A DNA stretch of 44,635 bases from Deltaproteobacteria bacterium (GTDB taxonomy: Bacteria; Desulfobacterota; GWC2-55-46; DRME01). The translations under genes were made by a program, and so were the position numbers. Shown here piece after piece: positions 20,469 to 39,786 of the stretch. Within the stretch, counting starts at the first letter, position 1; each line of letters begins with the position of its first letter. The stretch is taken from positions 1 to 44,635 of the forward strand of contig DRME01000055.1 of assembly GCA_011375175.1 (NCBI GenBank), written 5' to 3'. Under the pieces are notes generated by a model, which was given only the letters and a program-made list of their open reading frames with translations, did not search any database and was not told where the DNA came from.

Positions 20469-20469
20469 T

Positions 20470-20897: not shown

Positions 20898-20929
20898 TCA
20901 GGATGCGCAAAGGAAAGGGGCAAACCGGA

Positions 20930-21022: not shown

Positions 21023-21028
21023 GTCTCC

Positions 21029-23535: not shown

Positions 23536-24774
23536 TCAGAACGGTGAGCGGACGATGGAGAAGGCCGGAGAGCCGCCGTCGTCGACCACCTCGAGGAGAT
23601 AGGGGCTCTTGACCACCTCTCCCTCTTCGTCCATGGAGATGAGACCCGTGAGACCGTGGAAGCCCTCGATATCGAGAAGGGCCTTGCGCACCGCCGAGGG
23701 CCTGGTGGTGCCAGCGGCCTTCAGGGCCTCGGCTATGAGCATGAACGCGTCGTATGCCTCGGCCACGAACGTGGCGGGCGGGCGTCCCTCCCTCTTCCGG
23801 TAGCCTTCGACAAAGTCCCGCACCATCGGCTCATCAGCGAGGGGGGAGAAACCCGCGTAGAGGAGGGTGCCCACCACGATATCGCCGCCGGCGAGGAAAG
23901 TCTCGGTGCCGAGCTCCTCGCCTCCCACAAGCGGCAGCCTGAGCCCGGCGGCCCTTGCGGCCTCGAGGAAGTCGATGGCCGAGCGGTCCGAGCCTGCGAA
24001 GATGACGGCGTCCACGGGCATCGCGCTCTTTATCTCCTCGACGGCCGCGGCGACGTCGTCGGCCGTGAAGATGTGTCCCTCGGCCTTGATCTCGGCGCCC
24101 GTCTTGGCGGCGGCCATCCTGAAGAAGCTGGCCACGCTGAGCGCCTCGTCCTCCATGACCGTCACCAGCGCAAAGCGCTTGAGGCCCGCCTCGGCCGTGG
24201 CGTACTCCATGAGCTCGTCGGCCGCCTTCTGGCCCGGCAGGCTGGTCCTGAAGACGAACGGCCCGCTTCTCCCTATGTGACGGCGCGTGCCGGCCGATAT
24301 GAAGACCGTCGAGGACTCGTTGGCCATGTACACGGGCGCGAAGGTCGACCAGCCGGTCGGCGAGCCTATGATGGCCACGACCCCCTGCTTTATGAGCTCG
24401 TCCATGCCGGTCCTCGTTGCGCCCTGCTCGCTCCTGTTGTCGTACTCCACTATTTCGATGGGGGCCCCGTCGACACCGCCCGCGCCGTTGAAGGACTCGG
24501 CGGCGAGCCTTGCGCCCTCGAAGGTCATGAGTCCGTAGGCCGAGTCCTCGCCCGTCTTGGGACCGAGCACGCCCACCTTGAGCAGCCGTTCGCGCTCCTG
24601 CTCCGGCTCGCCCACCCCCGTCTCTTCGGGCTTTACCACCACCTGCGCCACGAGCTCCTCGAAGCTCTGGGGGCCCTTCTCCTCTTCCTCTTCACTGGAG
24701 CAGCCGGACAAGACGAGAAGGACCGCGAGCGAGAGGACCGCCGCGGCCGAAAAGACGCTGCTACGACTCTTCAT
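23536..24774 (-). CDS. Branched-chain amino acid-type (LivK-like) substrate-binding lipoprotein
   Basis: 412 residues. A lipoprotein signal with lipobox LSGC (Cys about 24), then an acidic Glu-rich linker (SSEEEEEKG) and a type 1 periplasmic-binding-protein fold: KVGVLGPKTGEDSAYGL, GVVAIIGSPTGWSTFAP, STVFISAGTRR, GFVF-like receptor segment and DAVIFAGSDRSAIDFLEAA. Such proteins bind amino acids, amides or other small polar ligands. No LivHMGF genes are present; instead its ATG overlaps the DUF4340 gene by 14 bp in an ABC-2 operon, so it may be a sensor or accessory lipoprotein there rather than part of a classical importer. Confidence 0.88.
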   Translation of the reverse strand: MKSRSSVFSAAAVLSLAVLLVLSGCSSEEEEEKGPQSFEELVAQVVVKPEETGVGEPEQERERLLKVGVLGPKTGEDSAYGLMTFEGARLAAESFNGAGGVDGAPIEIVEYDNRSEQGATRTGMDELIKQGVVAIIGSPTGWSTFAPVYMANESSTVFISAGTRRHIGRSGPFVFRTSLPGQKAADELMEYATAEAGLKRFALVTVMEDEALSVASFFRMAAAKTGAEIKAEGHIFTADDVAAAVEEIKSAMPVDAVIFAGSDRSAIDFLEAARAAGLRLPLVGGEELGTETFLAGGDIVVGTLLYAGFSPLADEPMVRDFVEGYRKREGRPPATFVAEAYDAFMLIAEALKAAGTTRPSAVRKALLDIEGFHGLTGLISMDEEGEVVKSPYLLEVVDDGGSPAFSIVRSPF

Positions 24775-25726
24775 CGTCCTTCACCTCGAGGTCCGTCACC
24801 TTCCGCGGTATGGCGTTGTAGAGCACTTCCTCCACGGAGAAGACGGCCTGCTCTCCGCCGCGCCTTGCGTAGTAGCCCCTGTTGACCTTGTCGCGGGCGC
24901 CGATCTCGAGGGTGTGGCGCACGCCGTGCTCGTCGTGAAAGACGATGCGCACCCTCGGGTCGTCCATGCCGTAGGCCGCCGGGTCCTCAGGCGCTTCGTC
25001 GACGAAGGCCTTCACCTTGCCCTTCTTGAGCTGCACGAGAAGCTCCATGACCTTTACGAAGTCCGTCCTCCCCTCGGGCAACTCGAGGGCGTTCCACACG
25101 CCCTCCTTCGGATGCTCGACAAAGACCCTCGTGCCGTCGCGCCACCGCACGTCGAAGCTCTTCACCCTCGTGGGCTCGAAACGGACTATGGACTTGTCCC
25201 TCAGGTCGTAGAGGTCGAGGTCCGAGTCGGTCATGATGTCCGAGTGGATCCTCAGCACCCTGGGGTCCCCCTCTATCATGGCGAAGGCCACGTTGTGGGT
25301 CGGCCCCTTGTCGCCGAAGCGCACCGTCCTGGTGAAGGAGTCGGTGCGCAGCTCGACCACGAGGTAGGGGTCGGCAAGGCCCATCTCTTCGAGCTTCTCC
25401 GCAGGGGCCTCGTCGAAGAGCACGGCGTCCATCCTGGCGTCGACGAGGTTGCGGAGGAAGGCCTCGATCTCTTCGCCGTCGCCGGCGGCCTCGACCGGGG
25501 CGGTGACGACCCAGCCGTCCTCCGTGCGCCGGGCCTGCTTCACCACGTCCTCGCCGCGGCGCTTTATCGTGAAGGATACGACATCGGAGGGCCTGAAGAG
25601 GAAGAGCCTTCTCTGCAGCTCCTCCTGCGCCTTCTTGTCCTCCATCTTGCGGTCGAAGATGTAGAAGGAGCCTCCAATGGCCGCGAGGATGATGACCCAG
25701 AAGATCGTCTTCTTGAAGAATCTCAT
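24761..25726 (-). CDS. DUF4340 domain protein
   Basis: 321 residues. A single N-terminal TM anchor (IFWVIILAAIGGSFYIF, about 9-25), then two beta-rich DUF4340 repeats in the periplasm (FRPSDVVSFTIKRRGEDVV, VELRTDSFTRTVRFGD, RFEPTRVKSFDVRWRDGTRV, GARDKVNRGYYARR). In many bacteria a DUF4340 gene directly follows GldG-like genes, as here (46-bp gap). Probably an accessory subunit of the ABC-2 complex; no biochemical role is known to me. Confidence 0.85.
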   Translation of the reverse strand: MRFFKKTIFWVIILAAIGGSFYIFDRKMEDKKAQEELQRRLFLFRPSDVVSFTIKRRGEDVVKQARRTEDGWVVTAPVEAAGDGEEIEAFLRNLVDARMDAVLFDEAPAEKLEEMGLADPYLVVELRTDSFTRTVRFGDKGPTHNVAFAMIEGDPRVLRIHSDIMTDSDLDLYDLRDKSIVRFEPTRVKSFDVRWRDGTRVFVEHPKEGVWNALELPEGRTDFVKVMELLVQLKKGKVKAFVDEAPEDPAAYGMDDPRVRIVFHDEHGVRHTLEIGARDKVNRGYYARRGGEQAVFSVEEVLYNAIPRKVTDLEVKDDEES

Positions 25727-25772
25727 CGCATATCCGGGCGGAGCCGCGTCCCGCTCCGAGCCTCCATGGAGG

Positions 25773-27329
25773 TCACTTCTCGAGCCTCTTCCTGAAGAAG
25801 ACGCCCAGACCGGCGATGCCCACCAGGGTGGGCGGCATGACGACGGCCACCCAGAAGATGAGCCGCCCCTGGGTGGCCGTGAGGATGACCGGGGTTATGC
25901 CCTCCTGCTTCTTCCTGATCGATATGAGGTCGGCCTCCTCGGCGAGCCAGGAGACGATGTTGAGGAAGAAGTCGCGGTTGCCCGCCAGGTTTATGTGCGT
26001 GTTGCTCACGAAGTCGGAGTCTCCCACCGTTATCAGCTTCGCGTAGGTCTTGCGCTCGCCTTCGGGCGTCTCCTTCGCGCCCTCGACCTTCGTCTCCACG
26101 AGGACCACCGATACGAGCGGCACCGGACCTTTTCTGTCCTCGTCCTCGTCGAACTCCGCCTTGCCGTCCTCGAGGCTCTTTCTGTCGGTCTCGGCCCAGC
26201 TCGACTTTCCCGTGCTCGCGAGCATATAGATGCCTGCTTCCGGGTTCGGCTGCACGGCCACGCTGCGGGCGAGGGGGAAGAAGGTCATGAGGTTGAACTC
26301 GGCCGTTATGGGATGGTCCTTCTCGTAGGCGGTCACGACGGGCACGAGGTAGTTGGCGCCGAAGACCTGCGAGAGCGTGTCTATCACGATGTCGTCGCCC
26401 ACGTGGAAGCCGTAGCCGCCGAGGTAGTCGACGAGGGCCGGCACCGTGCCAGGGTCGAGCATGAAGAGCACGCTCCCGCCGCCGTCGATGTAGGCCGTAA
26501 TCTTGTCGAGCTCCGAGGGCAGGAGGTTGCGCTTGGGACCGCTTACGACGAGCACGGCGCAGTCTTCGGGCACGGCCTCCTCCTCGACCAGCAGGAGCTC
26601 CTTTACGCTGAAGTTCTCCTTTTCAAGCGACTCCTTGACGGCCTTGTAGCCGTCCTGCCGGTCGCTTGAGATGCTGTTCTCGCCGTGCCCCTTGAGGAAG
26701 TAGACGCTCTTCATGTAGTCGCGCGTGACCTTGAGAAGGGCGTTCGTGATCTTCTCCTCGCTCTCGTAGCCTATGCGCTCCTCGCGCCCGCCGCTGCGCA
26801 GAAGCGTGGTCCTGTAGGAGGTGACGCCGTACTTCTCGGCCAGCGCCGGCTTCTTGTCGGGATCGACGAACCAGTAGGTGAAGCGCGGCGACTCGGAGGC
26901 GTAGCTTTCGAGAAGGTCCTCCATGGCCTGGCGCGTGCGCTCGTCGGTGCGGTAGAAGGCTATGGCCTCCACGTCGCGGTCGAGGGAGTCCAGTATCTTG
27001 AGCGTCTGGTCCGAGAGCGTATAGCGCTTGGTGGCCGTCAGGTCCAGGCGCATCTTGTACTTCATGCTCATCATGGCCACTATGACGAGTATGACCGTGA
27101 AGACCAGCACCATGAGCACCGCGTTGGCCCCGTACTTGGCGGACCGGCCCGTGAGCGCGGCCCTTATCTCCGGGAAGTTGACGTAGACGAAGAGCAGCGA
27201 CAGGAGCACGCCGGCCCAGATGAGCCCGGCCACCGGGGCCGACATGTCGCCCGTCACCATGTAGGCCACCGCCCCGACCACCATCAAGACCAGTCCCGCA
27301 AGTCCTGCAATGAGTATGTATCGCTTCAA
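25773..27329 (-). CDS. GldG-like ABC-2 auxiliary protein
   Basis: 518 residues. Two TM segments at the N-terminus (about 5-26 and 33-50) plus a third near 70-90, a large periplasmic domain of the ABC_transp_aux/GldG type (KRYTLSDQTLKILDSLDRDV, AFYRTDERTRQAMEDLL, YFLKGHGENSISSDRQDGY, GGSVLFMLDPGTVPALVDYL), and a C-terminal TM helix (IFWVAVVMPPTLVGIAGLGVFF). The start is TTG 27329 with GGAGGGG 9 nt upstream. It works with the permease and ATPase just upstream; homologues belong to gliding-motility GldAFG transporters but are also common in non-gliding bacteria. Confidence 0.88.
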   Translation of the reverse strand: MKRYILIAGLAGLVLMVVGAVAYMVTGDMSAPVAGLIWAGVLLSLLFVYVNFPEIRAALTGRSAKYGANAVLMVLVFTVILVIVAMMSMKYKMRLDLTATKRYTLSDQTLKILDSLDRDVEAIAFYRTDERTRQAMEDLLESYASESPRFTYWFVDPDKKPALAEKYGVTSYRTTLLRSGGREERIGYESEEKITNALLKVTRDYMKSVYFLKGHGENSISSDRQDGYKAVKESLEKENFSVKELLLVEEEAVPEDCAVLVVSGPKRNLLPSELDKITAYIDGGGSVLFMLDPGTVPALVDYLGGYGFHVGDDIVIDTLSQVFGANYLVPVVTAYEKDHPITAEFNLMTFFPLARSVAVQPNPEAGIYMLASTGKSSWAETDRKSLEDGKAEFDEDEDRKGPVPLVSVVLVETKVEGAKETPEGERKTYAKLITVGDSDFVSNTHINLAGNRDFFLNIVSWLAEEADLISIRKKQEGITPVILTATQGRLIFWVAVVMPPTLVGIAGLGVFFRKRLEK

Positions 27330-27364
27330 CGCCTCAAACCCCTCCGTCAGTCAGGTCGACCCTC

Positions 27365-28144
27365 TCAGCCCCTCCACCTCTTAGACTCGAGCATGCGCAG
27401 CGTGAGGAAGAGGAAGAGGAAGATGAAGATGGCGTAGTATATTACGTCCTCCGTATCGATGACCCCCTTGGCGAAACTCTCCACGTGCTGGGTGATGGAG
27501 ACGTAGGCGAGGAACCTGCCGATCCCGGGCGTGACGAAGGGGACCGACATGCTGAGCATCCAGAAGAGGAAGAGCACGCCGAAGGAGATCGTGGCGGCGA
27601 TGATCTGGTTCTCGGTGAGCGACGAGGCGAAGAGCCCCAAGGCGATGAACGAGGCGCCCAGCAAAAAGAGCCCCAGGTAGCCCGTGATGATGGGCCCCGT
27701 CTCCGGCTCGCCGAAGTACATGACAAGGGCCGGGAAGATGAGCGAGGCAAGGAGCATGGCCCCGAGCACCCCGAGGCAGGAGAGGAACTTGCCCGCGAGC
27801 ACCTGCGTGTCCGTAACGGGGTAGGAGAGCAGCAGCTCAATGGTGCCGCTCTTTTTCTCCTCCGAGAACTGGCGCATGGTGATAAGCGGCGTCATGATGA
27901 GCATTATCATGCTTATGATGCCGAAGAGCGGACGGATGACGCTCTCGGTCACGTTCAGGAGGTTCGCCTGCCTGGCAAGGGTCGGATCGATCTGGGCCTG
28001 GAAGCTCAGCTTCGAGAAGTAGGCGAAGAGCCCGTAGAAGAGATAGCCCGTGATGGCCAGAAACATGGCTATGACCACGTAGGCTATGGGGGAGCTGAAG
28101 TAACTCCTGAGCTCCTTGACGAACAGCAGATATATGTTCCTCAT
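27365..28144 (-). CDS. ABC-2 permease, GldF/NosY type
   Basis: 259 residues with six TM helices. YLLFVKELRSYFSSPIAYVV at the N-terminus, TMRQFSEEKKSGTIELLLSYPV (the ABC-2 family motif) and TENQIIAATISFGVLFLFW are typical. Related to both GldF and NosY. The neighbouring GldG and DUF4340 genes favour the GldF-type assignment. 204 bp of GC-rich sequence without recognisable features separate it from the ATPase gene. Confidence 0.88.
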   Translation of the reverse strand: MRNIYLLFVKELRSYFSSPIAYVVIAMFLAITGYLFYGLFAYFSKLSFQAQIDPTLARQANLLNVTESVIRPLFGIISMIMLIMTPLITMRQFSEEKKSGTIELLLSYPVTDTQVLAGKFLSCLGVLGAMLLASLIFPALVMYFGEPETGPIITGYLGLFLLGASFIALGLFASSLTENQIIAATISFGVLFLFWMLSMSVPFVTPGIGRFLAYVSITQHVESFAKGVIDTEDVIYYAIFIFLFLFLTLRMLESKRWRG

Positions 28145-28348
28145 CTCCGATTCCCTGTCTCTCGTCTGCCGCCCGGCCGGTGCGGGGAAGGCCGTCGGGC
28201 GCGGTCCTTCCGGGCAGGCGGTTTCTGCTTCTTCGCAGGTGCGCAGCCCTTGCCGGGCCGCATTGCAAGCAACGTCGTGGCCGGGCCTGCGACTCTTCGC
28301 GGGCCTCTTCGGGCGACCCCCCCGACCTTGCGGGCCTCCGCCCCCGGC

Positions 28349-29308
28349 CTACTCCCTCGTAACGAGCTTCACGAATATCTCCTCGAGGCTCAGCTCTATG
28401 GGCCTCATCTCGAGGAGTCCCCAGCCCTGCTTCACGATGAGCGCCGGGATATCTCTTCTCACGTCCCGTCCCTTTTCGAGGTCCACGTAGAACTCGCAGG
28501 CGCCGTCCGCTCCGCGCCCGCCATGGCGGCCGCCCTCTCCGGCGGCGGGCTCGACGGCCTTGACGCCCGCCATGGCCGCTATGGCGCTCTTTACGTCGCG
28601 GGCCGGACCGTCCACCCGGAGCTTGAGCCTGTTCGAGCCCTGGAGCCTGTCGGTGAGCCCCTTAGGCGTGTCTACGGCCACCACGCGGCCCTCGTTTATG
28701 ATGAGCACCCTGTTGCAGGTCATGCTCACCTCCGGCAGTATGTGGGTGCAGAGGATGACGGTCCTCGTGCCGGCAAGCCCCTTTATGAGGTCGCGTATCT
28801 CCACTATCTGCTTCGGGTCGAGGCCGATGGTGGGCTCGTCGAGTATGAGGACCTCGGGGTCGTTTATGAGGGCCTGGGCAAGGCCCACCCTCTGGCGGTA
28901 GCCCTTGCTCATGTGTCCGATGAGCTTTCTGCGCATGTGGGTTATGCCCACCTCGCCCATGACACGTTCGACCCGACCCTTGACCTCCGAGGCGGCCACC
29001 CCCTTGATGCCGGCCACGAAGCGCAGGTAGTCCTCGGCGGCCATGTCCCTGTAGAGGGGGACGCTCTCGGGGAGATAGCCGAGCCGTTTCCTCACCTCCA
29101 GCGACTCCTCGAAGACATCGAAGCCCGCGACCCGCGCCTTTCCGCTCGTGGCGGGAAAGAAGCAGGTGAGGATCCTCATGGTCGTGGTCTTGCCGGCGCC
29201 GTTGGGGCCGAGAAAGCCGAGGATCTCCCCCTTTCCGACGGTGAAGGAGATCCCCCTGAGGGCCTGGAAATTGCCGTATGATTTGGTAAGGTTTTCTACC
29301 TCGATCAT
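28349..29308 (-). CDS. ABC-2 transporter ATPase, GldA/NosF type
   Basis: 319 residues from ATG 29308. Walker A GPNGAGKTT, signature HMSKGYRQRVGLAQAL, Walker B VLILDEPTIGLDP and the switch His (LCTHIL) are all intact. A C-terminal extension of ~90 residues after the nucleotide-binding domain (KLRVDGPARDVKSAI...) is usual for the CcmA/NosF/GldA group. It energises the GldF/GldG-like partners downstream. Because a NosZ-like gene is 9 kb upstream, a NosF role was considered; GldG and DUF4340 in the same operon make GldA-like more likely. Confidence 0.88.
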   Translation of the reverse strand: MIEVENLTKSYGNFQALRGISFTVGKGEILGFLGPNGAGKTTTMRILTCFFPATSGKARVAGFDVFEESLEVRKRLGYLPESVPLYRDMAAEDYLRFVAGIKGVAASEVKGRVERVMGEVGITHMRRKLIGHMSKGYRQRVGLAQALINDPEVLILDEPTIGLDPKQIVEIRDLIKGLAGTRTVILCTHILPEVSMTCNRVLIINEGRVVAVDTPKGLTDRLQGSNRLKLRVDGPARDVKSAIAAMAGVKAVEPAAGEGGRHGGRGADGACEFYVDLEKGRDVRRDIPALIVKQGWGLLEMRPIELSLEEIFVKLVTRE

Positions 29309-29404: not shown

Positions 29405-29938
29405 CTACCTGGAGGACGGCGGCGCGCCCTGGACCTCCTTGTAGGCGCCGGGAGCGGTCTTCTCCCGCAGAGCCGACTCTATGGGACGGGAGTCGGGGGG
29501 GGTGTCGAGCAGCTCCAGCAGGGCCTCGTCCCCCTCGAGGAGCTTGACGATGTCCTTTCTCCTCCAGGTGTCCTCCCAGTTGCCCACAAGGGCGTTCCAG
29601 ACCTGGGCTATGGCGACGGCCTGGGCGTCGGTCATGTTCTCCACCCGTTTGCCCCGCCCCTGGTCGAGCCTGGTGATGGTCTTCATATTGTGTACGACCA
29701 CTATTATGGGAGGACCGCACCGTGAACAATACTTGGTGATCTTCTCCGTGCTGTGGCACTGGCTGCAGAGGTCGTAGGCCAGGACCTGCGCCTCCTCCGC
29801 CGTGTAGGGGAGGTAGCCGTCGGCCTTGAGACGCCCGAGGACCGCGTCGCCGTAGAAGACGAGGACCGCGACGGCCGCGACGGCGACTGCAGCGGCGGCG
29901 CCGCCTGTCTTGAGAAGACCCTTACTCTTCGAAGCCAT
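29405..29938 (-). CDS. Membrane-anchored monoheme cytochrome c with an extra CXXC
   Basis: 177 residues from ATG 29938. A TM anchor (about 12-30), then CSQCH at about 58-62 (heme c) and, nine residues later, CSRCG at about 71-75, a second CXXC without the His. Met in VHNMKTITR could be the distal ligand. The C-terminal half is charged and helical (WNALVGNWEDTWRRKD). A terminator lies directly upstream and I see no Shine-Dalgarno, so expression may be low or from an unnoticed promoter. Last gene of the cytochrome group. Confidence 0.75.
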   Translation of the reverse strand: MASKSKGLLKTGGAAAAVAVAAVAVLVFYGDAVLGRLKADGYLPYTAEEAQVLAYDLCSQCHSTEKITKYCSRCGPPIIVVVHNMKTITRLDQGRGKRVENMTDAQAVAIAQVWNALVGNWEDTWRRKDIVKLLEGDEALLELLDTPPDSRPIESALREKTAPGAYKEVQGAPPSSR

Positions 29939-29941
29939 ATA

Positions 29942-29983
29942 CAAAAACAGGGCACGGCCTTTTTAGACAAAAGGCCGTGCCCC
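29942..29983 (-). terminator. Rho-independent terminator after the 317-aa cytochrome c gene
   Basis: 14-bp perfect arms GGGCACGGCCTTTT (29950-29963) and complement (29969-29982), loop 5 nt. On the minus strand the stem is followed by CTGTTTTTGT. It separates the 30016-30969 gene from the membrane cytochrome. Confidence 0.85.
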
Positions 29984-30015
29984 TTTCAAGTGTCAGCATC
30001 TCTGCAAGCCGATGC

Positions 30016-30969
30016 TTAATATCCCTTCTTCACCTTGCTGGCCGTCTCCTCGGGGCGCTTGCGAAGTCCGCCCTCGACGAACTGGCCGCCTACGAGGTTG
30101 CTGCCGCGACCGGCAACCATGCCGCCTTCGAGCAGCTCCTGGACATCGAGGAACTCGGCGCTCTTGGAGGCGTTAAGCGGGGTTACGGCGTTTGCCGGAG
30201 AGTTGGGGTCGAAGCTCGACTTCGGGTTGAGGTACTCCTCGAGGTTCGTGGGCTTCTTGGCGTCGGCGTTGGCCCTTATCCACGCGATGACGTTCCAGAT
30301 GTCCTGGTCCTGGAGCAGGTTGCCCCAGGCGGGCATCGCGTCGGAGAGGTCCACGGCCGAGCCGCCGCCCTTGATGACCGCGAAGAGTTCGACGTTGGTC
30401 TTGTGGTTCATGTACTTCTTGCCGGCCGTAAGGTCCCTCGGGTAGGGATCGAGGAAGGGCGCGTTGGGTCCGTCGCCCTTGAGGAGCCAGCCGTGGCAGC
30501 CCACGCAGTAGACGTAGTACCACTGCTTGCCCTCGTTGGGGTCGGCGCCGGGCACGAGGCTCTTCTTGAAGGTCGGCGACCAGTTGTTGGTCCACTGGTT
30601 GTAGATGGCCTCGCCGGCCGCCGGCTTCTTGATCCTGTCCCAGACCTCGGTCTTGCCGGTGCCGGAGCCGTAACCGCTGTCTCCCTCGGCGAGGGTGGCC
30701 TTGCCCGCCTGGCCGCGCTTGGTCCTCTTGCCGACACCGGTCAGGTAGTCGAAGCCGGTGATGCCGTAAGTGGAGCCCGCCTTGCCCTGCATCATGGACA
30801 GGGCCTCGTTCTCGAAGTTGTTGAGCGACTGTTCGAGCTCGGCCTTGGTCCGGGTGGGACATTCGACCTTCTTGTTGCCGATCTTACATCTCTTCTCGGC
30901 TGCAAGGCCGGCCGCAGGCATGGCGAACACGCCGCAGGCGAGCAGCAAAACCAATAGCCTGATTATCAT
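30016..30969 (-). CDS. Exported monoheme cytochrome c with long N-terminal extension
   Basis: 317 residues from ATG 30969 (AAGGAGG 8 nt upstream; GTG 30978 rejected). Sec signal (about 1-24), ~125 residues of cytochrome-unlike sequence including two Cys (KRCKIGNKKVECP), then a class I cytochrome c domain: CVGCHGW (155-159), PYPRDLTAGKKYM and a possible distal Met in SDAMPAWG. The C-terminal tail of ~80 residues is rich in Asn/Pro/Gly. The VIKGGGSA segment is shared with the next cytochrome upstream (31081-31458). Likely a periplasmic electron carrier of the NosZ-like cluster. Confidence 0.85.
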   Translation of the reverse strand: MIIRLLVLLLACGVFAMPAAGLAAEKRCKIGNKKVECPTRTKAELEQSLNNFENEALSMMQGKAGSTYGITGFDYLTGVGKRTKRGQAGKATLAEGDSGYGSGTGKTEVWDRIKKPAAGEAIYNQWTNNWSPTFKKSLVPGADPNEGKQWYYVYCVGCHGWLLKGDGPNAPFLDPYPRDLTAGKKYMNHKTNVELFAVIKGGGSAVDLSDAMPAWGNLLQDQDIWNVIAWIRANADAKKPTNLEEYLNPKSSFDPNSPANAVTPLNASKSAEFLDVQELLEGGMVAGRGSNLVGGQFVEGGLRKRPEETASKVKKGY

Positions 30970-31080
30970 TCCTTTCACCTCCTTTTTGATGGCCAGAAAA
31001 GGTCCGCTATTGCCTGTTCTGCGCCACTAACAGTGTTCGGGTACGACTGCATGGTCTCCACAGCCACGCTGCCCTTGCGG

Positions 31081-31458
31081 TCAGCACTTGCAGAGCTTTC
31101 TGAGGTAATCCTTCAGGTCGTTGATCTCCTTTTCCGTAAGGGTCTTGCCGAAGGGGGGCATGAGGGTGGACTTGCTCGTGGCCGCGCCCCCTCCCTTGAT
31201 GACGTTGATTATATCCTGGTCGGAGAGTTTTTTCATCTCCTTGGTGTTTGTGTGGTTGCGGGGGCTTACGGGCTGATCCTTGGTGGCGTTGGGGCCGTTG
31301 CCCTCACCGGTGAGCCCGTGACACTGGGCGCAGTAGAACTTGTAGTTGTCCTCGGCCGTGGCAGAGAAGGCGTCGGTAGCAGCAGCGACGCTGAAGACGA
31401 AGAGCCCGGCCGCCAGCATGGCCGCGGCCCCTGCCGTATATGAAACCCTGCGGATCAT
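31081..31458 (-). CDS. Small periplasmic monoheme cytochrome c ending in LCKC
   Basis: 125 residues. Sec signal, CAQCHG (43-47), GNGPNATKD, VIKGGGAAT and distal Met in LMPPFG, a normal class I domain. It ends exactly in KLCKC; the cytochrome domain fused to the NosD-like protein (35362-36690) ends in ELCKC plus six residues, so the two are close relatives with a conserved C-terminal CXC. Start ATG behind AAGGAG. Co-directional with its neighbours (35-bp gap to the diheme gene). Confidence 0.9.
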   Translation of the reverse strand: MIRRVSYTAGAAAMLAAGLFVFSVAAATDAFSATAEDNYKFYCAQCHGLTGEGNGPNATKDQPVSPRNHTNTKEMKKLSDQDIINVIKGGGAATSKSTLMPPFGKTLTEKEINDLKDYLRKLCKC

Positions 31459-31493
31459 CTCTTGCTCCTTTCAGAAGAATTTTGGTGTGCGCC

Positions 31494-32168
31494 TCACTTC
31501 ATGGTGGCGATATACGCGGCCAGGGCCTTGAAGTCCGCGTTGTTCAGTATCCCGACATATACGGGCATGTCCTTTACGGGCTTGAAGACCTTGGGATTGG
31601 AGAGATAGGCGTATATCCAGTCGGGGTTGAGACGCTTGGCGGCGCCGATGAAGGTGGGGCCCGTGAGCCCTCCGCTGACCTTGCCGCGCTTTTTCACCTG
31701 GTGGCAGCCGTAACAGGCCTGCTTCTTCTCGAAGACGATCCTCGCCTTGGCGCTTCTCTTGGGCTTTTTGATGACCCCCGTCTTGACGTCGCTGCTCTTG
31801 AGCGTCATGAGGTACTCGGCCACCTCTTCAGCGTCCTTTTTCGAGAGCTTGGGGTGGTCGCCCTTGTTCTTCTCGGTGAGCGAATAGAACTGCATGGGAC
31901 GGATGGGCTTGGGGTCGGCGAGCCACTTCTTGAGGAAGCCCTCCTTGAACTTGCTGCCCGCGTACCAGAGCTCGGGGCCCTTCTTGGCCCACACGTCATA
32001 TATGGTCTTCTCGGCGGCAGGCCCCTTTGTCTGGTGGCAGTCGCCGCACTTCTTGGCGTTGAATATCTTCTGACCCTCGCCGGAGCCGGCATGGCCCGTG
32101 CCGACGCCCAGAGCCAGTACGGCCAGAAGCATGGCCGCAAAAAACGAGATAGTTGCGCTACGAGTCAT
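31494..32168 (-). CDS. Periplasmic diheme cytochrome c
   Basis: 224 residues. Sec signal (about 1-27), CGDCHQTKGP (41-45) and CYGCHQVKKRG (152-156). Possible distal Met residues lie in RPMQFYS and DMPVYVG. Both domains are long and Lys-rich. AAGGAGG precedes the ATG by 7 nt, and a clear promoter lies 55 bp upstream, so this gene begins its own transcript of three cytochromes. A role as electron shuttle toward the NosZ-like enzyme is inferred from position. Confidence 0.9.
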   Translation of the reverse strand: MTRSATISFFAAMLLAVLALGVGTGHAGSGEGQKIFNAKKCGDCHQTKGPAAEKTIYDVWAKKGPELWYAGSKFKEGFLKKWLADPKPIRPMQFYSLTEKNKGDHPKLSKKDAEEVAEYLMTLKSSDVKTGVIKKPKRSAKARIVFEKKQACYGCHQVKKRGKVSGGLTGPTFIGAAKRLNPDWIYAYLSNPKVFKPVKDMPVYVGILNNADFKALAAYIATMK

Positions 32169-32342: not shown

Positions 32343-33449
32343 CTATCTGCCCAGCAGCTTCTTTTCGCCGACACCGAGCCTGATCTCGAGCTTGTCGCCC
32401 TTCTTCCCGCCGAAGTGCGCCGTGTCGACGACGCCGATCCTGTTCAGCAGCACCTCGGTGAACCACAGCCTACCCTCTCCGTCCATGGCGGCGGCAAAGG
32501 GCTTGCCCGAGCCCGGCAGGTCAAGCTCCGTGAAGGTCGCCGTCGGCACGTGGAGCCTGCCGATCTTGCCGCCGTAGAAGTCGCAGTACCACACCGAGCC
32601 GGAGGCGTCTACGGCAAGCCCCTCGGGCAGGCGCTTGCCCGGCAGGTCATAGGTCTTGAAGCTTCCGTCCGAGGGGTCGAAGCTCACAAGCTTCCTGTCC
32701 TTGCGCGCGCCGAACCAGAGTCTTCCCTCGCCGTCCTTCACCAGGGTGCTCGGCACGGCCAGAGGAATGATGATTTCGTGCTCCTCGAAGCGTCCCGTCT
32801 CGGGGTCGAGCGAGGCGATCTTGTTGGTGTAGGCCTGGACGAACCACACGAGCCCCGAGTCGAGCACCGTTATGCCCATGGGCTGGCTGCCCCTGCTGGG
32901 GATGTCGTACTCCCTGAAACGCTTCGTGGCCGGGTCGAAGAGGCCGATCTTGCCGGCCTGGAACTGGGTGAACCATATCCTCCCCCGCCGGTCTATGGCG
33001 AGCCGGTAGGGCTGGCTGTAGGGCGTCGGTATCTCGTACTCGTCGAACTTCCCCGTGCGCGGGTCGTAAGAGCCTATCTGGTTGGCGTCCTGCTCGACGA
33101 ACCAGACGACGTCGTCGGCGTCGACGGCTATGTCCACGGGGAGACTGCGCGAGGTGGGGATGTCGAACTCCTCGAAGCTCTCGGTCGCCCTCCTGAAGAC
33201 ACCGAGCTTGTTGGCCGACGACTCGACGAACCAGACATCGCCCCTGGAGTCGGTGGCCACGGCCACGGCGAAGGCCTTGGCCGTGGGGATCTCGTGGAGG
33301 GTGACGGCCGTGTCGGCATGGAGCGGGCCGCCCCACAGGGCAAGTGCCGCCGCAACGAGCGCGGCCTTCAGCCACCGCAGCCTCGTCGGGACCGGCGCGG
33401 TCCGCGGGCCTGCGTTCCTGGCCGGCAGTGTTTTAATGGCCATCGTCAT
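32343..33449 (-). CDS. Exported Vgb-like (streptogramin-lyase family) beta-propeller, copy 2
   Basis: 368 residues. Signal peptide (about 22-45, ending PLHA), then about seven repeats of the form D..G.VWFVE....K(I/L)G..D..T..F.EY(E/D)IP, giving a seven-bladed propeller like virginiamycin B lyase. The ATG overlaps the stop of the upstream paralogue as TGATG, a coupled pair. A second ATG two codons later has better spacing from GAGGGG. The drug-lyase activity of Vgb is unlikely in this setting; the conserved blades more plausibly make a binding or assembly scaffold beside the NosZ-like propeller. Confidence 0.85.
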   Translation of the reverse strand: MTMAIKTLPARNAGPRTAPVPTRLRWLKAALVAAALALWGGPLHADTAVTLHEIPTAKAFAVAVATDSRGDVWFVESSANKLGVFRRATESFEEFDIPTSRSLPVDIAVDADDVVWFVEQDANQIGSYDPRTGKFDEYEIPTPYSQPYRLAIDRRGRIWFTQFQAGKIGLFDPATKRFREYDIPSRGSQPMGITVLDSGLVWFVQAYTNKIASLDPETGRFEEHEIIIPLAVPSTLVKDGEGRLWFGARKDRKLVSFDPSDGSFKTYDLPGKRLPEGLAVDASGSVWYCDFYGGKIGRLHVPTATFTELDLPGSGKPFAAAMDGEGRLWFTEVLLNRIGVVDTAHFGGKKGDKLEIRLGVGEKKLLGR

Positions 33450-34645
33450 CAGCCCCTCTGTCTCGTGATGATGTACCAGGCCGCCGCCGCAAGGAGCGCG
33501 ACGGCGGCGATGAGCGCCCAGGGGCTCGGCGAGGAGCGCCGCGCCTGAGGCTCCTCCACCGCCGCGGCGGCCTCGCCGCGGCCCTCCTCGGCCGCGACCC
33601 GCGCCGACGCTCCGAGCGTTGCAAGGCTGTTTGCGTCGCGGTCGGAGAGCAGGAACCAGGGGTTGCCGTCGGCGTCCACGGTCACCGCCGTGGGCAGGGC
33701 CCGGGGCGTGGGTATCTCATGGCCCTCGAAGCGGGCGCTCCCGGGGTCGAAGCTTACGACCTTGTTGCCCCGGTTCTCGACGAACCATACGATACCGTCG
33801 GCCGATATGTCGAGCGAGACGGGGACGGCTCCCGGCGTGGGCACGACGGCCTCGAAGAAGATGCCGGTGCGGGGGTCGAACATCTCGAGCCTGTTGCCCA
33901 GCGACTCGACGATCCACACCCCACCGTCCGGGGCCACGGCCACGTCTATGGGGTTGGCCAGGCGATCGCCGAGGGGGTGCTCGGTGATCTTTCCGTCCGC
34001 GGGGTCCACGGAGGCGAGCCTTGCGGCCGTCGTCTCGACGAACCAGACCGTGCCGTCGGGGGCCACGGCGATGCCCGTGGGCTGGCTGTTGGGAGTGGGC
34101 ACGTCGTAGACGGTGAATGCGCCGTCCCGGTAGCGGCCCACGATGTTGGCGTTTCGTCCCGTGAACCAGACCGCGCCGTCGGGGGCCACGGCCACGTCGT
34201 AGGGCTCTGCGGCGCGGCGCGGCACGGTGTGGAGCTTCACGGCGCCGGTGGCCGGGTCGAGCTCTCCTAAGGCGTTGACGCGCTCGTCGCCGAGGGCGAA
34301 CCAGACGGTGCCGTCAGCTCCGACGGCGATACCCGCCGGGCTGCCCCCATCGGGGACGGCGTACTCGGTGAACTCTCCCGTCGCCCGGTCGAAGGCGACC
34401 ACCTTGTGGACGTTCTGGCAGGTGAACCACAGGCGGCCGTCCCCGCCCGCGACGATGGAGACGGGGTTGGAGAAGTCTGTGGGCAGCGGATGGGAGATGA
34501 CGGCCGCGGCGCTGCGCGAGGGCGCGAGCAGCGAGGCGGCGATGAGGGCCGCCGCGGCCGGCAGGGCCGCAAAGGCCCCCTTCCGGCGGGCGGCGCCGCG
34601 GCGCCGCGGCCTCGTCAGTGCTTCCTCTCTCGGCCCCTCGCCCAT
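33449..34645 (-). CDS. Vgb-like beta-propeller with N- and C-terminal membrane segments, copy 1
   Basis: 398 residues. A basic N-terminus and hydrophobic signal/anchor (about 24-48), seven Vgb-type blades (repeated D.DG.VWFVE/TG with LPTDFSNPVSIV, PTPNSQPTGIAVAPDGTVWF and so on), an Ala/Glu-rich linker, and a C-terminal TM helix (ALIAAVALLAAAAWYII) with a short basic tail. The propeller should face the periplasm and be tethered to the inner membrane. It starts 9 bp after the subunit IV-cytochrome c gene and overlaps its soluble paralogue by one base, so the two probably act with the cytochrome b complex. Confidence 0.85.
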   Translation of the reverse strand: MGEGPREEALTRPRRRGAARRKGAFAALPAAAALIAASLLAPSRSAAAVISHPLPTDFSNPVSIVAGGDGRLWFTCQNVHKVVAFDRATGEFTEYAVPDGGSPAGIAVGADGTVWFALGDERVNALGELDPATGAVKLHTVPRRAAEPYDVAVAPDGAVWFTGRNANIVGRYRDGAFTVYDVPTPNSQPTGIAVAPDGTVWFVETTAARLASVDPADGKITEHPLGDRLANPIDVAVAPDGGVWIVESLGNRLEMFDPRTGIFFEAVVPTPGAVPVSLDISADGIVWFVENRGNKVVSFDPGSARFEGHEIPTPRALPTAVTVDADGNPWFLLSDRDANSLATLGASARVAAEEGRGEAAAAVEEPQARRSSPSPWALIAAVALLAAAAWYIITRQRG

Positions 34646-34654: not shown

Positions 34655-35365
34655 CTACCAGGTGAACGTCGGTTCGTAGAAGTGACGAAGCTGCCAGTTG
34701 GCGTCCTTGTAGGTCTGCGCGGCCCTGCTGAAGTCGACGGCCCCTTCGCTGTCGAGCTTGCCGGCCCTGAACTTTCCGACCTTTATCTGGCGCTGGCGCT
34801 CGGTGGCGTAGTACGCGGCCACGTCCATGGGCGGCAGGTACTGGCGCATGCCGTACTGGGGCGTATGGCAGGCGATGCAGCCCGTGACCTTGGCCGGCGA
34901 GCCGACCAGGTATATGCTTACGAAGATGGCCGCGAAGAGCGCCACCGGAGGCACGAGCCGCAGGGCCGCGGCCAGGAAACCCTTTTTGCGGCGCCTGCGC
35001 TTGCTGAAGATGAAGGGCGTGAGCACGAGCAGGAGCACTATCAGCAGGGGGGCGTAGAAGGTGCCGAGCACGGCGTAGCCCTGCGACTCGCCGGCGAAGT
35101 ACCAGAAGGGCTGCATGAGGAAGAGGAAGTACCACTCCGGCCCGGGTATGTACATGCCGTCGTCGGGAAAGGCCATGTTGAAGTCCGTGGGCACGTAGAA
35201 CTTGGCCGACAGCCCGGCGAGCACGGCGATGAGCACGACTACGATAAGGCCCGTCGTCAGGACGTGTCTCGGCCAGAACCTGTAGAATTCCTGCGGATAG
35301 GGCGGCGCGTAGCGCGGATCCGAAAGCTGCTGCTCTTCCTGTCTCTCTTCCCTGGCCAACCTCAC
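34655..35365 (-). CDS. Cytochrome b subunit IV-like protein fused to a cytochrome c domain
   Basis: 236 residues. A cytosolic N-terminus, three TM helices (about 34-53, 97-120, 137-154) and the quinol-site motif PGPEWYFLF (about 75-82), which is the PEWY loop of cytochrome b C-terminal/subunit IV proteins. After the last helix comes a periplasmic C-terminus with one heme c motif, CIACH (163-167), and possible Met ligands (QYGM, PPM). Together with the cytochrome b6 gene upstream it makes a split cytochrome b with a built-in c heme in place of a separate cytochrome f/c1. Starts with GTG overlapping the NosD-fusion stop (GTGA). Confidence 0.9.
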   Translation of the reverse strand: MRLAREERQEEQQLSDPRYAPPYPQEFYRFWPRHVLTTGLIVVVLIAVLAGLSAKFYVPTDFNMAFPDDGMYIPGPEWYFLFLMQPFWYFAGESQGYAVLGTFYAPLLIVLLLVLTPFIFSKRRRRKKGFLAAALRLVPPVALFAAIFVSIYLVGSPAKVTGCIACHTPQYGMRQYLPPMDVAAYYATERQRQIKVGKFRAGKLDSEGAVDFSRAAQTYKDANWQLRHFYEPTFTW

Positions 35366-36690
35366 TCACCCCCTTCGTACTTGCACTTGCAGAGCTCGCT
35401 CCTGATATAGGAGATGACGGCCCTTATCTCGTCGTCGCTGAGCGTGTTGCTGAAGGGCATCATGTTCTCCGAGAAGCCGACGCTGGCTCCGCCGTTTCGT
35501 ATGACCTTGAAGAGGAACTCGTCGGTGCGCTGGCTCAGAAGCTCCTTGTTCGTCAGGTCGCGGGGCCGGACGTCGAGGGTTTCGGCCAGTATGCCGTCTC
35601 CCGCTCCGCCGGGGCCGTGACAGGTCACGCAGTAGCTGTCGAAGTTTCCCCGGCCCGAGCCGGTGCCCTCGCTCCACGCGGCGGCGCTCATGTAGTCCGG
35701 CTCCTTGGTGGCGCCGAAGTCGGGCTTGAGGGAGGCGTAGCTCTTCTGCGACGGCGGGAGGGGCAGATGCGCCTGGGCCTCCTCGCCGCCGTAGGCGCCC
35801 AGGTCCGCGCCGTTCTCACCGGCGCCGGCGGCAGGTGAGCCGGAGGCGAGGCGGAAGTCGCCGCCCGAGGGGTCCTTCAGGCGTGGGTCGGCGCTGAGTC
35901 CGCCGGGACCGGCGCTTACGTTGACATAGTCGGTGCCGTTGCCCCAGACGAGGTTGTGGGAGAGGCGGGGCTCCACGCCCTCCTGGGCCTCGGGCAGCTC
36001 GGCCCAGGATATGCCGGCCTTCTCGTTGCGGGCGACGATGTTGTTCTTCACCGCGACGGAGGAGACCTCGCTGTAGATGCCGAAGGAGTTGCCCCAGATG
36101 GTGTTGTTCGTGAGCTCGGGCGTGGAGTAGGAGACGTAGACGCCGTAGCCGCCGTTTCCGGTTATTATGTTGTTGCGCACCCTCGCGTCGCTGTAGGAGA
36201 GGTACACGCCGTGGACCCTCGAAGAGGCGATGACGTTGTTTATCACGTAGGAGGGCGAGTAATAGAGCTTTATGCCCGTGTTGTTGCCCTTTATGATGTT
36301 GTTGGCTATGGTCATGGGCGCGTTGTTGCCCGATATGCCGGCGTCCATCATGGTGCCTGTAGTGCCCTTGGTGCCGCTGCCCGTTATGGTGAAGCCCTCT
36401 ATGACGGCCCCCTTGGCGCCGACTATGACCGAGCCCGTGCCGTCGCCGACTATGGTGGTCTCGGCGGCGCCTGCGCCCTGGAGCACGACGCCTTCCCCGA
36501 GGACCACGTTCCCCCTGTAGGTGCCGGGCGCAACACGCACCGTGTCGCCCGGGGCGGCCCTGTCGACCGCCTCCTGGATGGTCCTGTGGTCGCCGGGCAC
36601 GTTGAGCACCGCCGCGTGGACCGCCGCGGCGCTCAAGACGACCGCCGACACCGCCAGACCCCATAAAAAACGCTTTGCCACAAGAATCAT
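35362..36690 (-). CDS. NosD-like beta-helix protein fused to cytochrome c
   Basis: 442 residues from ATG 36690 (GGGAGGG upstream; the open frame before it lies over the spacer and is not used). Sec signal (about 1-26), then a right-handed beta-helix of NosD/CASH type: VPGDHRTIQEAVDRAAPGDT, then PbH1-type turns NNIIKGNNTGIKLYYS, NNVIASSRVHGVYLSYS, NNIITGNGGYGVYVSYS and NNTIWGNSFGIYSEVS. NosD proteins help insert copper into N2O reductase. From ~345 on, a class I cytochrome c: CVTCHGPGGAGDG (354-358), distal Met in ENMMPF, ending ELCKCKYEGGE. I know of no standard NosD with a fused cytochrome; the fusion would tie the assembly-type domain to electron transfer. Confidence 0.88.
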   Translation of the reverse strand: MILVAKRFLWGLAVSAVVLSAAAVHAAVLNVPGDHRTIQEAVDRAAPGDTVRVAPGTYRGNVVLGEGVVLQGAGAAETTIVGDGTGSVIVGAKGAVIEGFTITGSGTKGTTGTMMDAGISGNNAPMTIANNIIKGNNTGIKLYYSPSYVINNVIASSRVHGVYLSYSDARVRNNIITGNGGYGVYVSYSTPELTNNTIWGNSFGIYSEVSSVAVKNNIVARNEKAGISWAELPEAQEGVEPRLSHNLVWGNGTDYVNVSAGPGGLSADPRLKDPSGGDFRLASGSPAAGAGENGADLGAYGGEEAQAHLPLPPSQKSYASLKPDFGATKEPDYMSAAAWSEGTGSGRGNFDSYCVTCHGPGGAGDGILAETLDVRPRDLTNKELLSQRTDEFLFKVIRNGGASVGFSENMMPFSNTLSDDEIRAVISYIRSELCKCKYEGGE

Positions 36691-36743: not shown

Positions 36744-37373
36744 TCACAGGGGCCCCGATATGCCGTGGCGCCTCACCATCTTGAAGTGGAAGAAGAGGAC
36801 AACGAGGCTCAGAAGCGGCAGCAGCCACACGTGGGTGACGTAGCTGCGGCCGACGGTGAAGGTGTTGAGGATCGGACCCTCGAGGAGCGGGCCTATGAGC
36901 GGCCAGGTGGTGATGTAGTCGGTCCAGATGACGAGCACCCAGTAGCCGCGCCAGTTCCATGGCAGTATGGCGCCGGTGATGAGGAAGAGCCAGACGATGA
37001 GGAACATGGCCACACCGGTGAGCCAGTTGAGCTCCCTCGGCTTCTGGAAGGCCCTGTGGTAGAAGACCGAGAAGAGGTGGGTGAGCAGGGTGGCGACGAT
37101 GAGCGTCGCGCCCCAGCGGTGCATGCTGCGCACGAACCAGCCGTAGGGGACCTCGTTGCTGAGACGCAGGACGCTCTCAAAGGCGTCCTGCGGCTTGGGC
37201 ACGTAGTAGAAGAGCATGAAAAAGCCCGAAAGGACCTGGAGGAGGAGGATTACGAGCGTTATGCCGCCGAAGCAGTAGAAGAGATTGACGTGCTTCGGGA
37301 TGGGCAGGTTCTTCTTCGCCCTGAGCCAGCTCTTGAAGCCGGCCCTCTCTTCGAGCCAGTCGCCTAATGACAT
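36744..37373 (-). CDS. Cytochrome b6-type subunit (N-terminal half of cytochrome b)
   Basis: 209 residues, four TM helices. Two bis-His heme pairs are visible: H85/H99 and H181/H196. VNLFYCFGGITLVILLLQ has the Cys (about 34) that in cytochrome b6 binds the additional heme ci, so this is of the b6 rather than the bc1 type. QVLSGFFMLFYY and RSMHRWGATLIV are also b6-like. Partner of the subunit IV-cytochrome c fusion two genes downstream. No Rieske iron-sulfur gene lies next to it, which is unusual. AGGGG precedes the ATG by 7 nt. Confidence 0.92.
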   Translation of the reverse strand: MSLGDWLEERAGFKSWLRAKKNLPIPKHVNLFYCFGGITLVILLLQVLSGFFMLFYYVPKPQDAFESVLRLSNEVPYGWFVRSMHRWGATLIVATLLTHLFSVFYHRAFQKPRELNWLTGVAMFLIVWLFLITGAILPWNWRGYWVLVIWTDYITTWPLIGPLLEGPILNTFTVGRSYVTHVWLLPLLSLVVLFFHFKMVRRHGISGPL

Positions 37374-37523: not shown

Positions 37524-37994
37524 CTACCTGGGGATCGCCGGAGCGCCGCCGACCTTCTGGCCCACGTACTTCTCGGGCCCCTCGTCGGTGCTCTCGCCGG
37601 TAAAGTCTATCTTCCAGGCGTTCTCTTCCTCGTCGAGCTCGAGGTATACGTCCGTCTGGGTGGTGAAGGTGCCGCCGAAGGAGCTTTCGAGGTCATACTC
37701 TATGGTCACCACGGCGGTGACATCCTTGACGTCGCTGGATACGACCCTGACGCCCATGTTCTTCGGGTACCGGGAGACGAGGTTCTTGAATATCTCTTCG
37801 TCGAGCTTGTAGTGCTTGGAGCTGACGAGCCGGTAGGCCTCGCCCAGCGTGGTGCCGCCTCCTTCGGCCACATAGGCGTAGAAGCGCTCGACCACCTGCT
37901 CCGGCGTCTCCACCGGCGGGGTCCTCGTCTCCGTGCAGGCCGTGACGGCGAGCAGAAGAAAAGGCGCCAGGCAAAAGAGGCAAAGTCGACTCAA
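37524..37994 (-). CDS. Putative lipoprotein of unknown function in the NosZ-like cluster
   Basis: 156 residues from a TTG start at 37994, chosen because the longer frame (to 38078) would begin inside the terminator and add unlike residues, while AGGAG lies just before this TTG. Signal with lipobox LAVTAC, then a DUF4878/NTF2-like pattern: TPEQVVERFYAYVAEGGGTT, SSKHYKLDEEIFKNLVSRYP, VTIEYDLESSFGGTF and YLELDEEENAWKIDFTGES. Such folds often occur as accessory lipoproteins. Lies between nosZ-like and cytochrome b6 genes, so it may be a copper- or complex-assembly factor; this is inference only. Confidence 0.75.
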   Translation of the reverse strand: MSRLCLFCLAPFLLLAVTACTETRTPPVETPEQVVERFYAYVAEGGGTTLGEAYRLVSSKHYKLDEEIFKNLVSRYPKNMGVRVVSSDVKDVTAVVTIEYDLESSFGGTFTTQTDVYLELDEEENAWKIDFTGESTDEGPEKYVGQKVGGAPAIPR

Positions 37995-38012
37995 GGCTCC
38001 TTTTTCCTCTCT

Positions 38013-38054
38013 TAAAAAGGCGTGTCCCGGCCCTTTGGGGACCGGGACACGCCT
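38013..38054 (-). terminator. Rho-independent terminator/attenuator after the NosZ-like gene
   Basis: 13-bp perfect arms AGGCGTGTCCCGG (38018-38030) and complement (38042-38054), loop 11 nt, followed on the minus strand by TTTTTAAG. Placed between the NosZ-like stop (38101) and the lipoprotein start, so it would make the NosZ-like message the most abundant and reduce read-through into the b6-NosD-Vgb genes. Confidence 0.85.
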
Positions 38055-38100
38055 GACTGTCGAAGAGTGGCTTACCAAGGGGATAAGCCTCTTTCCGCTC

Positions 38101-39786
38101 TTAGATTTCCGGCGTCTCGACGAGACCGGGCTCCGTGAGCTCCTTCTGCTTGTGGGCCTCGAGGTAGTCGCCGGTATCGAGGTTGGCGGGACCCTCGGGG
38201 CCGTCCACGAAGAAGGTCGCCCTCATCTCCAGATGGAGCGGACCGCAGAAGTGCTGACAGTAGATCTCGTACTCACCGGCGTAGTCGGCCACGAACTCGC
38301 TCATCACCGAGATGCCCCTGGGCGCTGTCAGGTTGGTCCTCAGGCCGTAGGGGCCGTAGATGGTGAGACCCATGATGACGTCGGGGTTCTTGGTGATGCC
38401 GGCCGCCTTGTCGATGTTGGTGACGATGAGCCTGACCTTGTCACCCTTGTTGACCCTGATGTTCCTCGGGACATAGCCGTAGCTGAAGGCCTTTATGTGG
38501 ACCTCCTTCACGCCGTTCTTCTCGACGATGCCGGGCCTGGCCGTATCCCTCGGTATGAAGGCGACCTTGGCGCCGGCATGGTGGCGGGGATGGATGTCCT
38601 TCCGCTCACCCTTGACGATCTGACCGGCCTGCCCCATGTCCCACTGCTTGATCTTGTTGGCGAAGATGACCTTCGCGTTGTGGGGCTCTCCGTCGACGGG
38701 GATGATCTTGAGCGACTTTCCGTAGGTCGGGCTCTTGGGATCCACGTCGAGCATCTCGTGGTTGACGGGCCAGCGGATGCCGGTGGGGCTGAACAGTCCC
38801 GTCGAGAACTTGTTGAGCGCGAAGACGTACTTGTCGTCGGCGCTTATGGCTATGTGGCCTATCCTGTAGTGGATGGGGAACTCGTCGACGACCTGCAGCT
38901 TGTTGAGGTCCACCTTGACGACCGAGTCGGCGACGAAGCAGCTCTCGTAGGCGAAGTCACCGGCGTTGTCCATGACCGTGTGGAGAGGACCGGCGCCGGT
39001 CGGTATGACCTTCTTGACCTCGAGCTTCTTGGCGTCGATGATGGTCATCGTCGCCGAGAGCTTGTCGCTGACGAGCACCCAGCGTCCCGTGGGCTCGGTG
39101 TCCACGCCGTGGGGGTTCTTGCCGACCGGTATCTCCTTTACGAGCTTGAAGGGATTGGTCGTGAAGACACCCACCGTGGAGTGGTAGTAGTTGCCCGCGA
39201 AGACGTACTCCTTGTCGCTCTTGCCGGCCTTGCTCACGTCCAGGTAGTCGGGCGCGCTCGGCGCCGGACCCCAGTCGATGACCTGGGCCTTGCCGGTGGC
39301 TATGTCGATCTTGGCCATCTTGCCGGTGAGCTCACCGGTGGCGAAGAGGGTCTTGCCGTCCTGGCTCAGCGATATGTGATGCACGCCGAAGGGGAACGGC
39401 AGGGATATGAGCCTCTCGAGGGTACCGAGCTGCAGGTTGATGACGCCGATGGTGTTGGCGGCCTTGTCGTTGACGTAGAGGTACTTTCCGTCGGGCTTGA
39501 GGTTCTTGTTGCCCGCGTTGCTCGGTGCGCTGAAGACGGGCTCGTGGAGGTCCACGCCCACGCGGATGTGACGGTAGGTCCTCATGCTCGGGATGCCGAA
39601 GACCGCCACCTGCCCGTCAAGGCCGCCGGCATTGTACATGAGCTGCGAGTCCTTGAGAGGAGCGTCGTTGGGACTCGACTCGGTGACGTGCCAGTCCCTG
39701 CTGTCGGCCATGACCGCCTGCGGAGCGACAGCGAGCCCCGTTAGCGCGGCGGCGGCAAATATATAACTTAATACTCTCGTTCGCAC
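38101..39786 (-). CDS. Divergent nitrous-oxide-reductase-like protein (NosZ-like propeller plus CuA-type cupredoxin)
   Basis: 561 residues; NosZ is usually ~600-650. GTG start with GAGGAGG upstream; Sec signal cleaved near VMA (26), no Tat motif. Residues ~60-380 form a seven-bladed propeller and ~430-527 a cupredoxin domain. CuZ-position matches: VDLHEP (H81, but E82 where NosZ has HH), FGVHH (136), KNPHGV (H226), GPLHT (H269), IGHI (H311), GEPHNA (H369). CuA loop: CQHFCGPLHLEM with C510, C514, H518, M521; the first CuA His (DLTHGF in NosZ) aligns with Met472 (DVIMGL). The DGKYLYVNDKA segment is clearly NosZ-like. It would reduce N2O, or another substrate, in the periplasm. First gene of the cluster with its own promoter. 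Overall homology to NosZ is strong by motif; catalytic identity is open. Confidence 0.8.
   Translation of the reverse strand: MRTRVLSYIFAAAALTGLAVAPQAVMADSRDWHVTESSPNDAPLKDSQLMYNAGGLDGQVAVFGIPSMRTYRHIRVGVDLHEPVFSAPSNAGNKNLKPDGKYLYVNDKAANTIGVINLQLGTLERLISLPFPFGVHHISLSQDGKTLFATGELTGKMAKIDIATGKAQVIDWGPAPSAPDYLDVSKAGKSDKEYVFAGNYYHSTVGVFTTNPFKLVKEIPVGKNPHGVDTEPTGRWVLVSDKLSATMTIIDAKKLEVKKVIPTGAGPLHTVMDNAGDFAYESCFVADSVVKVDLNKLQVVDEFPIHYRIGHIAISADDKYVFALNKFSTGLFSPTGIRWPVNHEMLDVDPKSPTYGKSLKIIPVDGEPHNAKVIFANKIKQWDMGQAGQIVKGERKDIHPRHHAGAKVAFIPRDTARPGIVEKNGVKEVHIKAFSYGYVPRNIRVNKGDKVRLIVTNIDKAAGITKNPDVIMGLTIYGPYGLRTNLTAPRGISVMSEFVADYAGEYEIYCQHFCGPLHLEMRATFFVDGPEGPANLDTGDYLEAHKQKELTEPGLVETPEI

Follow-up and report, generated by a model that had tools for sequence, protein, structure and literature searches.

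The window, by which we mean the whole analysed stretch of 44,635 nucleotides, encodes on its minus strand (38101..39786) a NosZ protein of 561 residues that by profile and tree is a clade III (lactonase-type, L-NosZ) nitrous oxide (N2O) reductase, and in which a methionine, M472, stands at the position of the first histidine of the CuA site. This methionine is a real, conserved modification of a multi-phylum sub-branch and has a single origin. Most likely, judging from its residues and relatives, the protein is a functional respiratory N2O reductase whose CuA has been rebuilt; the best explanation as a whole, to which we give a probability of roughly 0.68, is a Sec-exported clade III N2O reductase with a modified CuA and a seven-histidine CuZ that would include H137. 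Biological removal of N2O (laughing gas), a strong greenhouse gas, is mainly the work of N2O reductase.

Gene identification and clade placement

The nosZ gene starts with GTG at 39786 and stops at 38101-38103 (the coordinates include the stop), with a ribosome-binding site, AGGAGGTG, graded strong, 8 nt 5' of the GTG. The coordinates in the initial annotation were right, the gene lying on the minus strand, and its description of 561 residues with a Sec rather than a Tat leader was borne out: the leader, MRTRVLSYIFAAAALTGLAVAPQAVMA, lacks a twin arginine, and a Sec-type signal peptide was assigned by eye to residues 1-27 (39706..39786, minus strand), with cleavage after AVMA. A leader without twin arginine is ordinary in clade II NosZ, which is Sec-dependent. 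A wrong strand or a frameshift is ruled out as an artefact: the frame is intact, a ribosome site is present, and genome contigs contain 24 homologous loci. The source genome is 98.6% complete, and its sole nos_propeller match is the window nosZ.

The NCBIfam model NF052460 ("clade III lactonase-type nitrous-oxide reductase", L-NosZ) matched the protein across positions 1-479 of its 480 profile positions and scored 721.8 bits, above the cut-off of 700 bits, while TIGR04246 (clade II, 197.7 bits) and TIGR04244 (clade I, 149 bits) both scored below their cut-offs of 625 bits. Pfam returned propeller repeats, nos_propeller at 41.9 bits (cut-off 30) and, below threshold, a cupredoxin. When the ligand columns were left out of the tree, the protein grouped with L-NosZ and separately from clades I and II (support 100/100); profile score and tree together rule out a misread clade II NosZ. 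The hhalign comparison of a clade III profile (24 proteins) with a profile of eight clade I and II NosZ gave a probability of 100% (E 2e-69) over 450 columns. The L-NosZ family originates from He et al. (2025, Nature 646:152, doi 10.1038/s41586-025-09401-4), as cited in PMC13274427 and PMC12569097, and clade III is also described in PMC13122619. Given the membership by profile and tree, the lineage is one already known. Where the initial annotation had raised the possibility of a distinct N2O reductase lineage with a modified copper site, the distinct lineage stands (it has an NCBIfam model of its own) and so does M472, but the lineage is not new, clade III having been published in 2025, and its CuZ is probably intact. 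At 700 bits, the L-NosZ cut-off excludes the Nitrospinota group C described below, which scores 565-603 bits, as well as those members of the window's own group that score 690-696 bits, and would lead surveys to undercount both.

An AlphaFold2 model made with the clade III alignment as input reached a pLDDT of 78.9. Its 50 best PDB matches were all N2O reductases (E about 1e-32 to 1e-29), the top one being an H130A mutant (E 2.8e-32). Against the best matches, TM-scores were near 0.54 and the rmsd was large, which suggests that the relative placement of the two domains is poorly modelled.

The CuZ site

Ligands were compared in the numbering of P. stutzeri NosZ. The alignment of the clade III with the clade I and II profile pairs VDLHEP with GDCHHP, PFGVHHIS with VQAIHGLR and DVIMGL with DVSHGF. 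Six of the seven classical CuZ histidines are present in the window protein, namely H81 (H129), H136 (H178), H226 (H326; 39109..39111), H269 (H382; 38980..38982), H311 (H433; 38854..38856) and H369 (H494; 38680..38682), and the missing H130 is E82; H81 and E82 are encoded at 39541..39546, and H136 with the adjacent H137 at 39376..39381, all on the minus strand. The initial annotation had named the same six counterparts and a Glu82 at the second histidine of the HH pair, and the profile alignment agrees, placing E82 on H130 and, in CuA, M472 on H583. In known structures CuZ is held by seven histidines, two of them consecutive, with two histidines on every copper except one; when the seven were replaced singly, six replacements lost all metal and the seventh left an inactive three-copper cluster (PMC11573801). 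A plain loss of H130 would therefore be expected to be fatal. Here E82 is accompanied by a conserved extra histidine, H137, which the initial annotation did not recognise as such, so that the CuZ site is probably intact and not one ligand short.

Among clade III proteins whose CuZ set is complete (groups A, B and C), all 38 of 38 have histidine at position 137, which is never histidine in the eight clade I and II proteins. Clades I and II have HH at 129/130 and H[GSVA] at 178/179, whereas these clade III proteins have H[E/N] and HH; this H[E/N] ... HH pattern, a signature drawn from the present alignment, is common to clade III, window protein included. The missing histidine at 130 is a clade III trait and not peculiar to the window protein. 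From the alignment we infer that H137 is the obvious replacement seventh CuZ ligand, the seventh histidine having apparently shifted to the neighbouring propeller blade. Possibly E82, in the same enzyme, is itself a carboxylate copper ligand replacing H130, with H137 in the second sphere only. Carboxylates are able to bind copper and all group A and B proteins have E82, yet group C, complete in other respects, has Asn at this position, and H137 is invariant in all three groups; we hold this reading to be unlikely. Since the swap between 82 and 137 took place only once on the tree, counting cannot show that it is compensatory; the replacement of H130 by H137 gives a concrete, checkable model for the clade III active site. 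The conduit residues K454, E492 and F621 between CuA and CuZ (PMC11573801) are retained in the window protein as K326, E367 and F513.

The CuA site

The CuA residues M472, C510, H512, C514, H518 and M521 of the window protein correspond to H583, C618, W620, C622, H626 and M629. Of the canonical set H-x34-C-x3-C-x3-H-x2-M (two His, two Cys, one Met), the first histidine is M472 (codon ATG, 38371..38373, minus strand) and the others are kept in the loop C510-QHF-C514-GPL-H518-LE-M521 (38224..38259, minus strand), which is how the initial annotation had read the site. There is no other histidine at or beside the M472 position in the alignment or the loop, nor does another histidine align at E82. 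The loop residue H512, which the initial annotation passed over, takes the place of the CuA-loop Trp in some members only, the position being Thr in 8 of 19 group B proteins and Gln in 6 of 7 group C proteins; it is ruled out as a hidden or general substitute for the CuA histidine, as it is not general in groups B and C.

The histidine at H583 (H579 in Marinobacter) flips between bound and unbound states and has been proposed as a gate for electron and proton transfer; with the flipping histidine unbound, CuA1 has two Cys and one Met only (PMC11573801). Methionine at 472 would, judging from the ligand set, give CuA1 four sulfur ligands. We know of no CuA in which CuA1 rests on four sulfur ligands. 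Since the replaced residue is the proposed gating histidine, the CuA of the sub-branch would be expected to lack the gate and to have an altered potential. Whether such gating occurs has been argued on clade I enzymes, with the help of crystal structures and point mutants; a lineage that does without the CuA histidine while under strong purifying selection offers a natural test of the idea. Within the surveyed literature, which does not include He et al. (2025), a fixed methionine at a CuA ligand position appears as a new element.

Groups within clade III and fixation of the methionine

Four kinds of proteins separate within clade III on the tree made without ligand columns. Group A (Sporomusa, Desulfovibrio and relatives) has His at 472 and scores 870-915 bits against NF052460 in the four members tested; group B comprises the window's class and phylum and Nitrosomonadales; group C is from Nitrospinota; and group D, also from Nitrospinota, has lost nearly all CuZ histidines and keeps a canonical CuA. 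M472 is shared by all 26 of 26 intact proteins of groups B and C, and not by group A. The tree requires a single switch between His and Met; His is found in group A, group D and clades I and II alike, which makes Met derived. When the long branch leading to group D is taken out, the single Met origin holds: B and C form one group (SH-aLRT 99), and a topology uniting C with A is rejected (AU p 0.002).

Pairwise dN/dS was 0.02-0.09 for the CuA domain (four pairs with usable dS) and 0.06-0.22 for the whole protein, hence the CuA domain is under the stronger purifying selection. This bears on the doubtful possibility that the CuA is not dinuclear, M472 making a mononuclear (type 1-like) or redox-silent site while electrons reach CuZ by another route: one of the two CuA histidines is indeed gone in all 26 members, but both Cys, His518 and Met521 are invariant in the Met-type sub-branch, and selection on this domain exceeds that on the protein as a whole. 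It bears also on whether the gene is a degenerate or inactive copy, as could be argued from its two altered classical ligands and from truly degenerate relatives in Nitrospinota (L007/L071, and group D without CuZ histidines). The dN/dS values and the conservation of residues reject such a copy, which we regard as highly improbable given also the open frame, the strong ribosome site and the conserved neighbourhood. The initial annotation had allowed that homologues with canonical residues might expose this copy as degenerate; the homologues of groups B and C share the change, so it is not.

Several relatives deserve mention in their own right. The Nitrospinota L-NosZ homologue at L007:1198-4617, in which several ligands of CuZ and CuA are lost, extends at its C-terminus by about 580 extra residues (no Pfam match; caspase/CHAT-like by eye) and adjoins a phosphoesterase-like ORF, and its genome also holds an intact group C copy. 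Three Nitrospinota NosZ-like proteins (L080, L081, L082; NF052460 384-414 bits) lack most CuZ histidines and have a canonical CuA; two of the genomes also hold group C nosZ, and one locus (L090) lies beside cytochrome c genes. A genome of the window's class (L050, G432) encodes a TAT-type clade I NosZ (956 bits), so that canonical and Met-type enzymes occur within one class. In the unannotated record OQ572413.1, named Pseudomonas phage Y12, positions 20459-21424 hold a NosZ-like stretch (27.5% identity) that may be host DNA.

Gene neighbourhood and maturation genes

nosZ is the head gene of a same-strand cluster whose members listed here all lie downstream on the minus strand. It is followed by a small lipoprotein-like protein conserved beside nosZ in groups B and C (37524..38078), a cytochrome b of the b6/petB type (36744..37373; PF00033, 140.7 bits), a NosD-like beta-helix fused to cytochrome c (35362..36690; PF05048, PF13442; TIGR04247 74 of 300 bits) and a membrane cytochrome c (34655..35365). 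The last is related by tblastn to the petD-cytochrome c protein of group A nosZ (L015:6947-7657), which carries Cytochrom_B_C and Cytochrom_C; the window counterpart has no Pfam match of its own. Beyond lie two Vgb-like beta-propeller genes (32343..34645; PF24684), four c-type cytochromes or CxxCH proteins (29405..32168, individually 31494-32168, 31081-31458, 30016-30978 and 29405-29944, the fourth with a CSQCH motif) and GldA/GldF/GldG-like ABC genes with DUF4340 (24761..29308). Much of this order is repeated beside many group B and C nosZ. Cytochrome b and petD-c also flank group A nosZ, to which Sporomusa adds a Rieske protein and a MacB-type ABC permease; a search around the Sporomusa locus gained no further member in that taxonomic order. 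The neighbourhood fits quinol-driven N2O respiration.

As further observations, the two virginiamycin-B-lyase-like propellers (32343-34645) recur within the respiratory cluster beside relatives, and a resistance role for them there seems unlikely. At three loci (L011:2125-7145, L095:4765-9751, L090:1651-6432), genes for a cytochrome bd-I-like protein, two cytochromes c and an ethylbenzene-dehydrogenase-like haem subunit (two CxxCH) lie 5' of clade III genes, the families being assigned in L011 only and the other two sets recognised by gene order and size. The source genome also encodes oxidases matching aa3 and cbb3 models. Three consecutive haem-copper oxidase subunit I-like genes at G000:C67:132-6054 (L099-L101) have no NCBIfam equivalog above cut-off. 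The window contains four related palindromic repeats (12515-12628, 19258-19353, 23019-23115 and 44535-44632; arms of about 47-56 nt, spacer of 2-3 nt) that resemble small non-coding mobile elements.

Proposed function

N2O reduction is the likely function of the window protein as far as its sequence and setting tell. We propose that it is a respiratory N2O reductase of clade III, exported by the Sec route to the periplasm, which quinol electrons would reach by way of the cytochrome b / petD-cytochrome c module and neighbouring c-type cytochromes. They would enter at a copper-bearing modified CuA (C510, C514, H518, M521, with M472 as a putative ligand), and N2O would be reduced at a CuZ held by H81, H136, H137, H226, H269, H311 and H369, with H137 standing in for the lost H130. 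Against this explanation stand the maturation genes: the source genome, 98.6% complete, contains no match to NosL, a copper chaperone for CuZ (PMC6530538), a good NosD match is absent, and the ABC genes are Gld-like and not clearly NosFY. For the sub-branch as a whole we tentatively suggest, at somewhat less than even odds, a dinuclear CuA with one His and two Met, a sulfur-only CuA1 and no flipping-His gate, together with a CuZ that has a relocated seventh histidine and is built without NosL.

The protein might instead be a NosZ-fold copper enzyme for a substrate other than N2O, as both copper sites differ from those of clades I and II, the NF052460 score is barely above cut-off (722 of 700) with related groups below it, and NosL is missing from its own genome. 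However, the protein keeps its electron conduit residues and every CuZ position but 82, its gene lies among respiratory genes, and the nearest characterised clade reduces N2O according to PMC13274427, which cites He et al. (2025) for this. Hence we think another substrate quite unlikely and prefer the N2O reductase.

Comparison with known systems

The nearest odd natural case of a CuA is that of PmoD (PMC6189053), a natural CuA with an unusual ligand set including Met; its site, though, lies between two subunits with one Cys each, and motif and protein are unrelated. With clade I NosZ (TIGR04244, TAT-dependent; PDB 3SBQ, 1FWX, 9F8X) the window protein shares the fold, six CuZ histidines and the two Cys, His and Met of CuA, but it has no twin arginine, is about 80 residues shorter, has H130 and H583 replaced, scores 149 bits against 625, and leaves the Ca2+-loop ligands E260/D274 unaligned. 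With clade II NosZ (TIGR04246, Sec-dependent) it shares the fold, six CuZ histidines, Sec export and nearby cytochrome b and c genes, whereas clade II has HH and the CuA histidine, and the score is 197.7 bits against 625. L-NosZ (NF052460) is matched in the whole-protein profile, the CuZ signature H-E ... H-H, the Sec-type leader and the cytochrome b/c neighbours; the best-scoring members, those of Sporomusa and Desulfovibrio, differ in having His at 472 and CSYFC, where the window's group has Met with CxHFC or CETFC.
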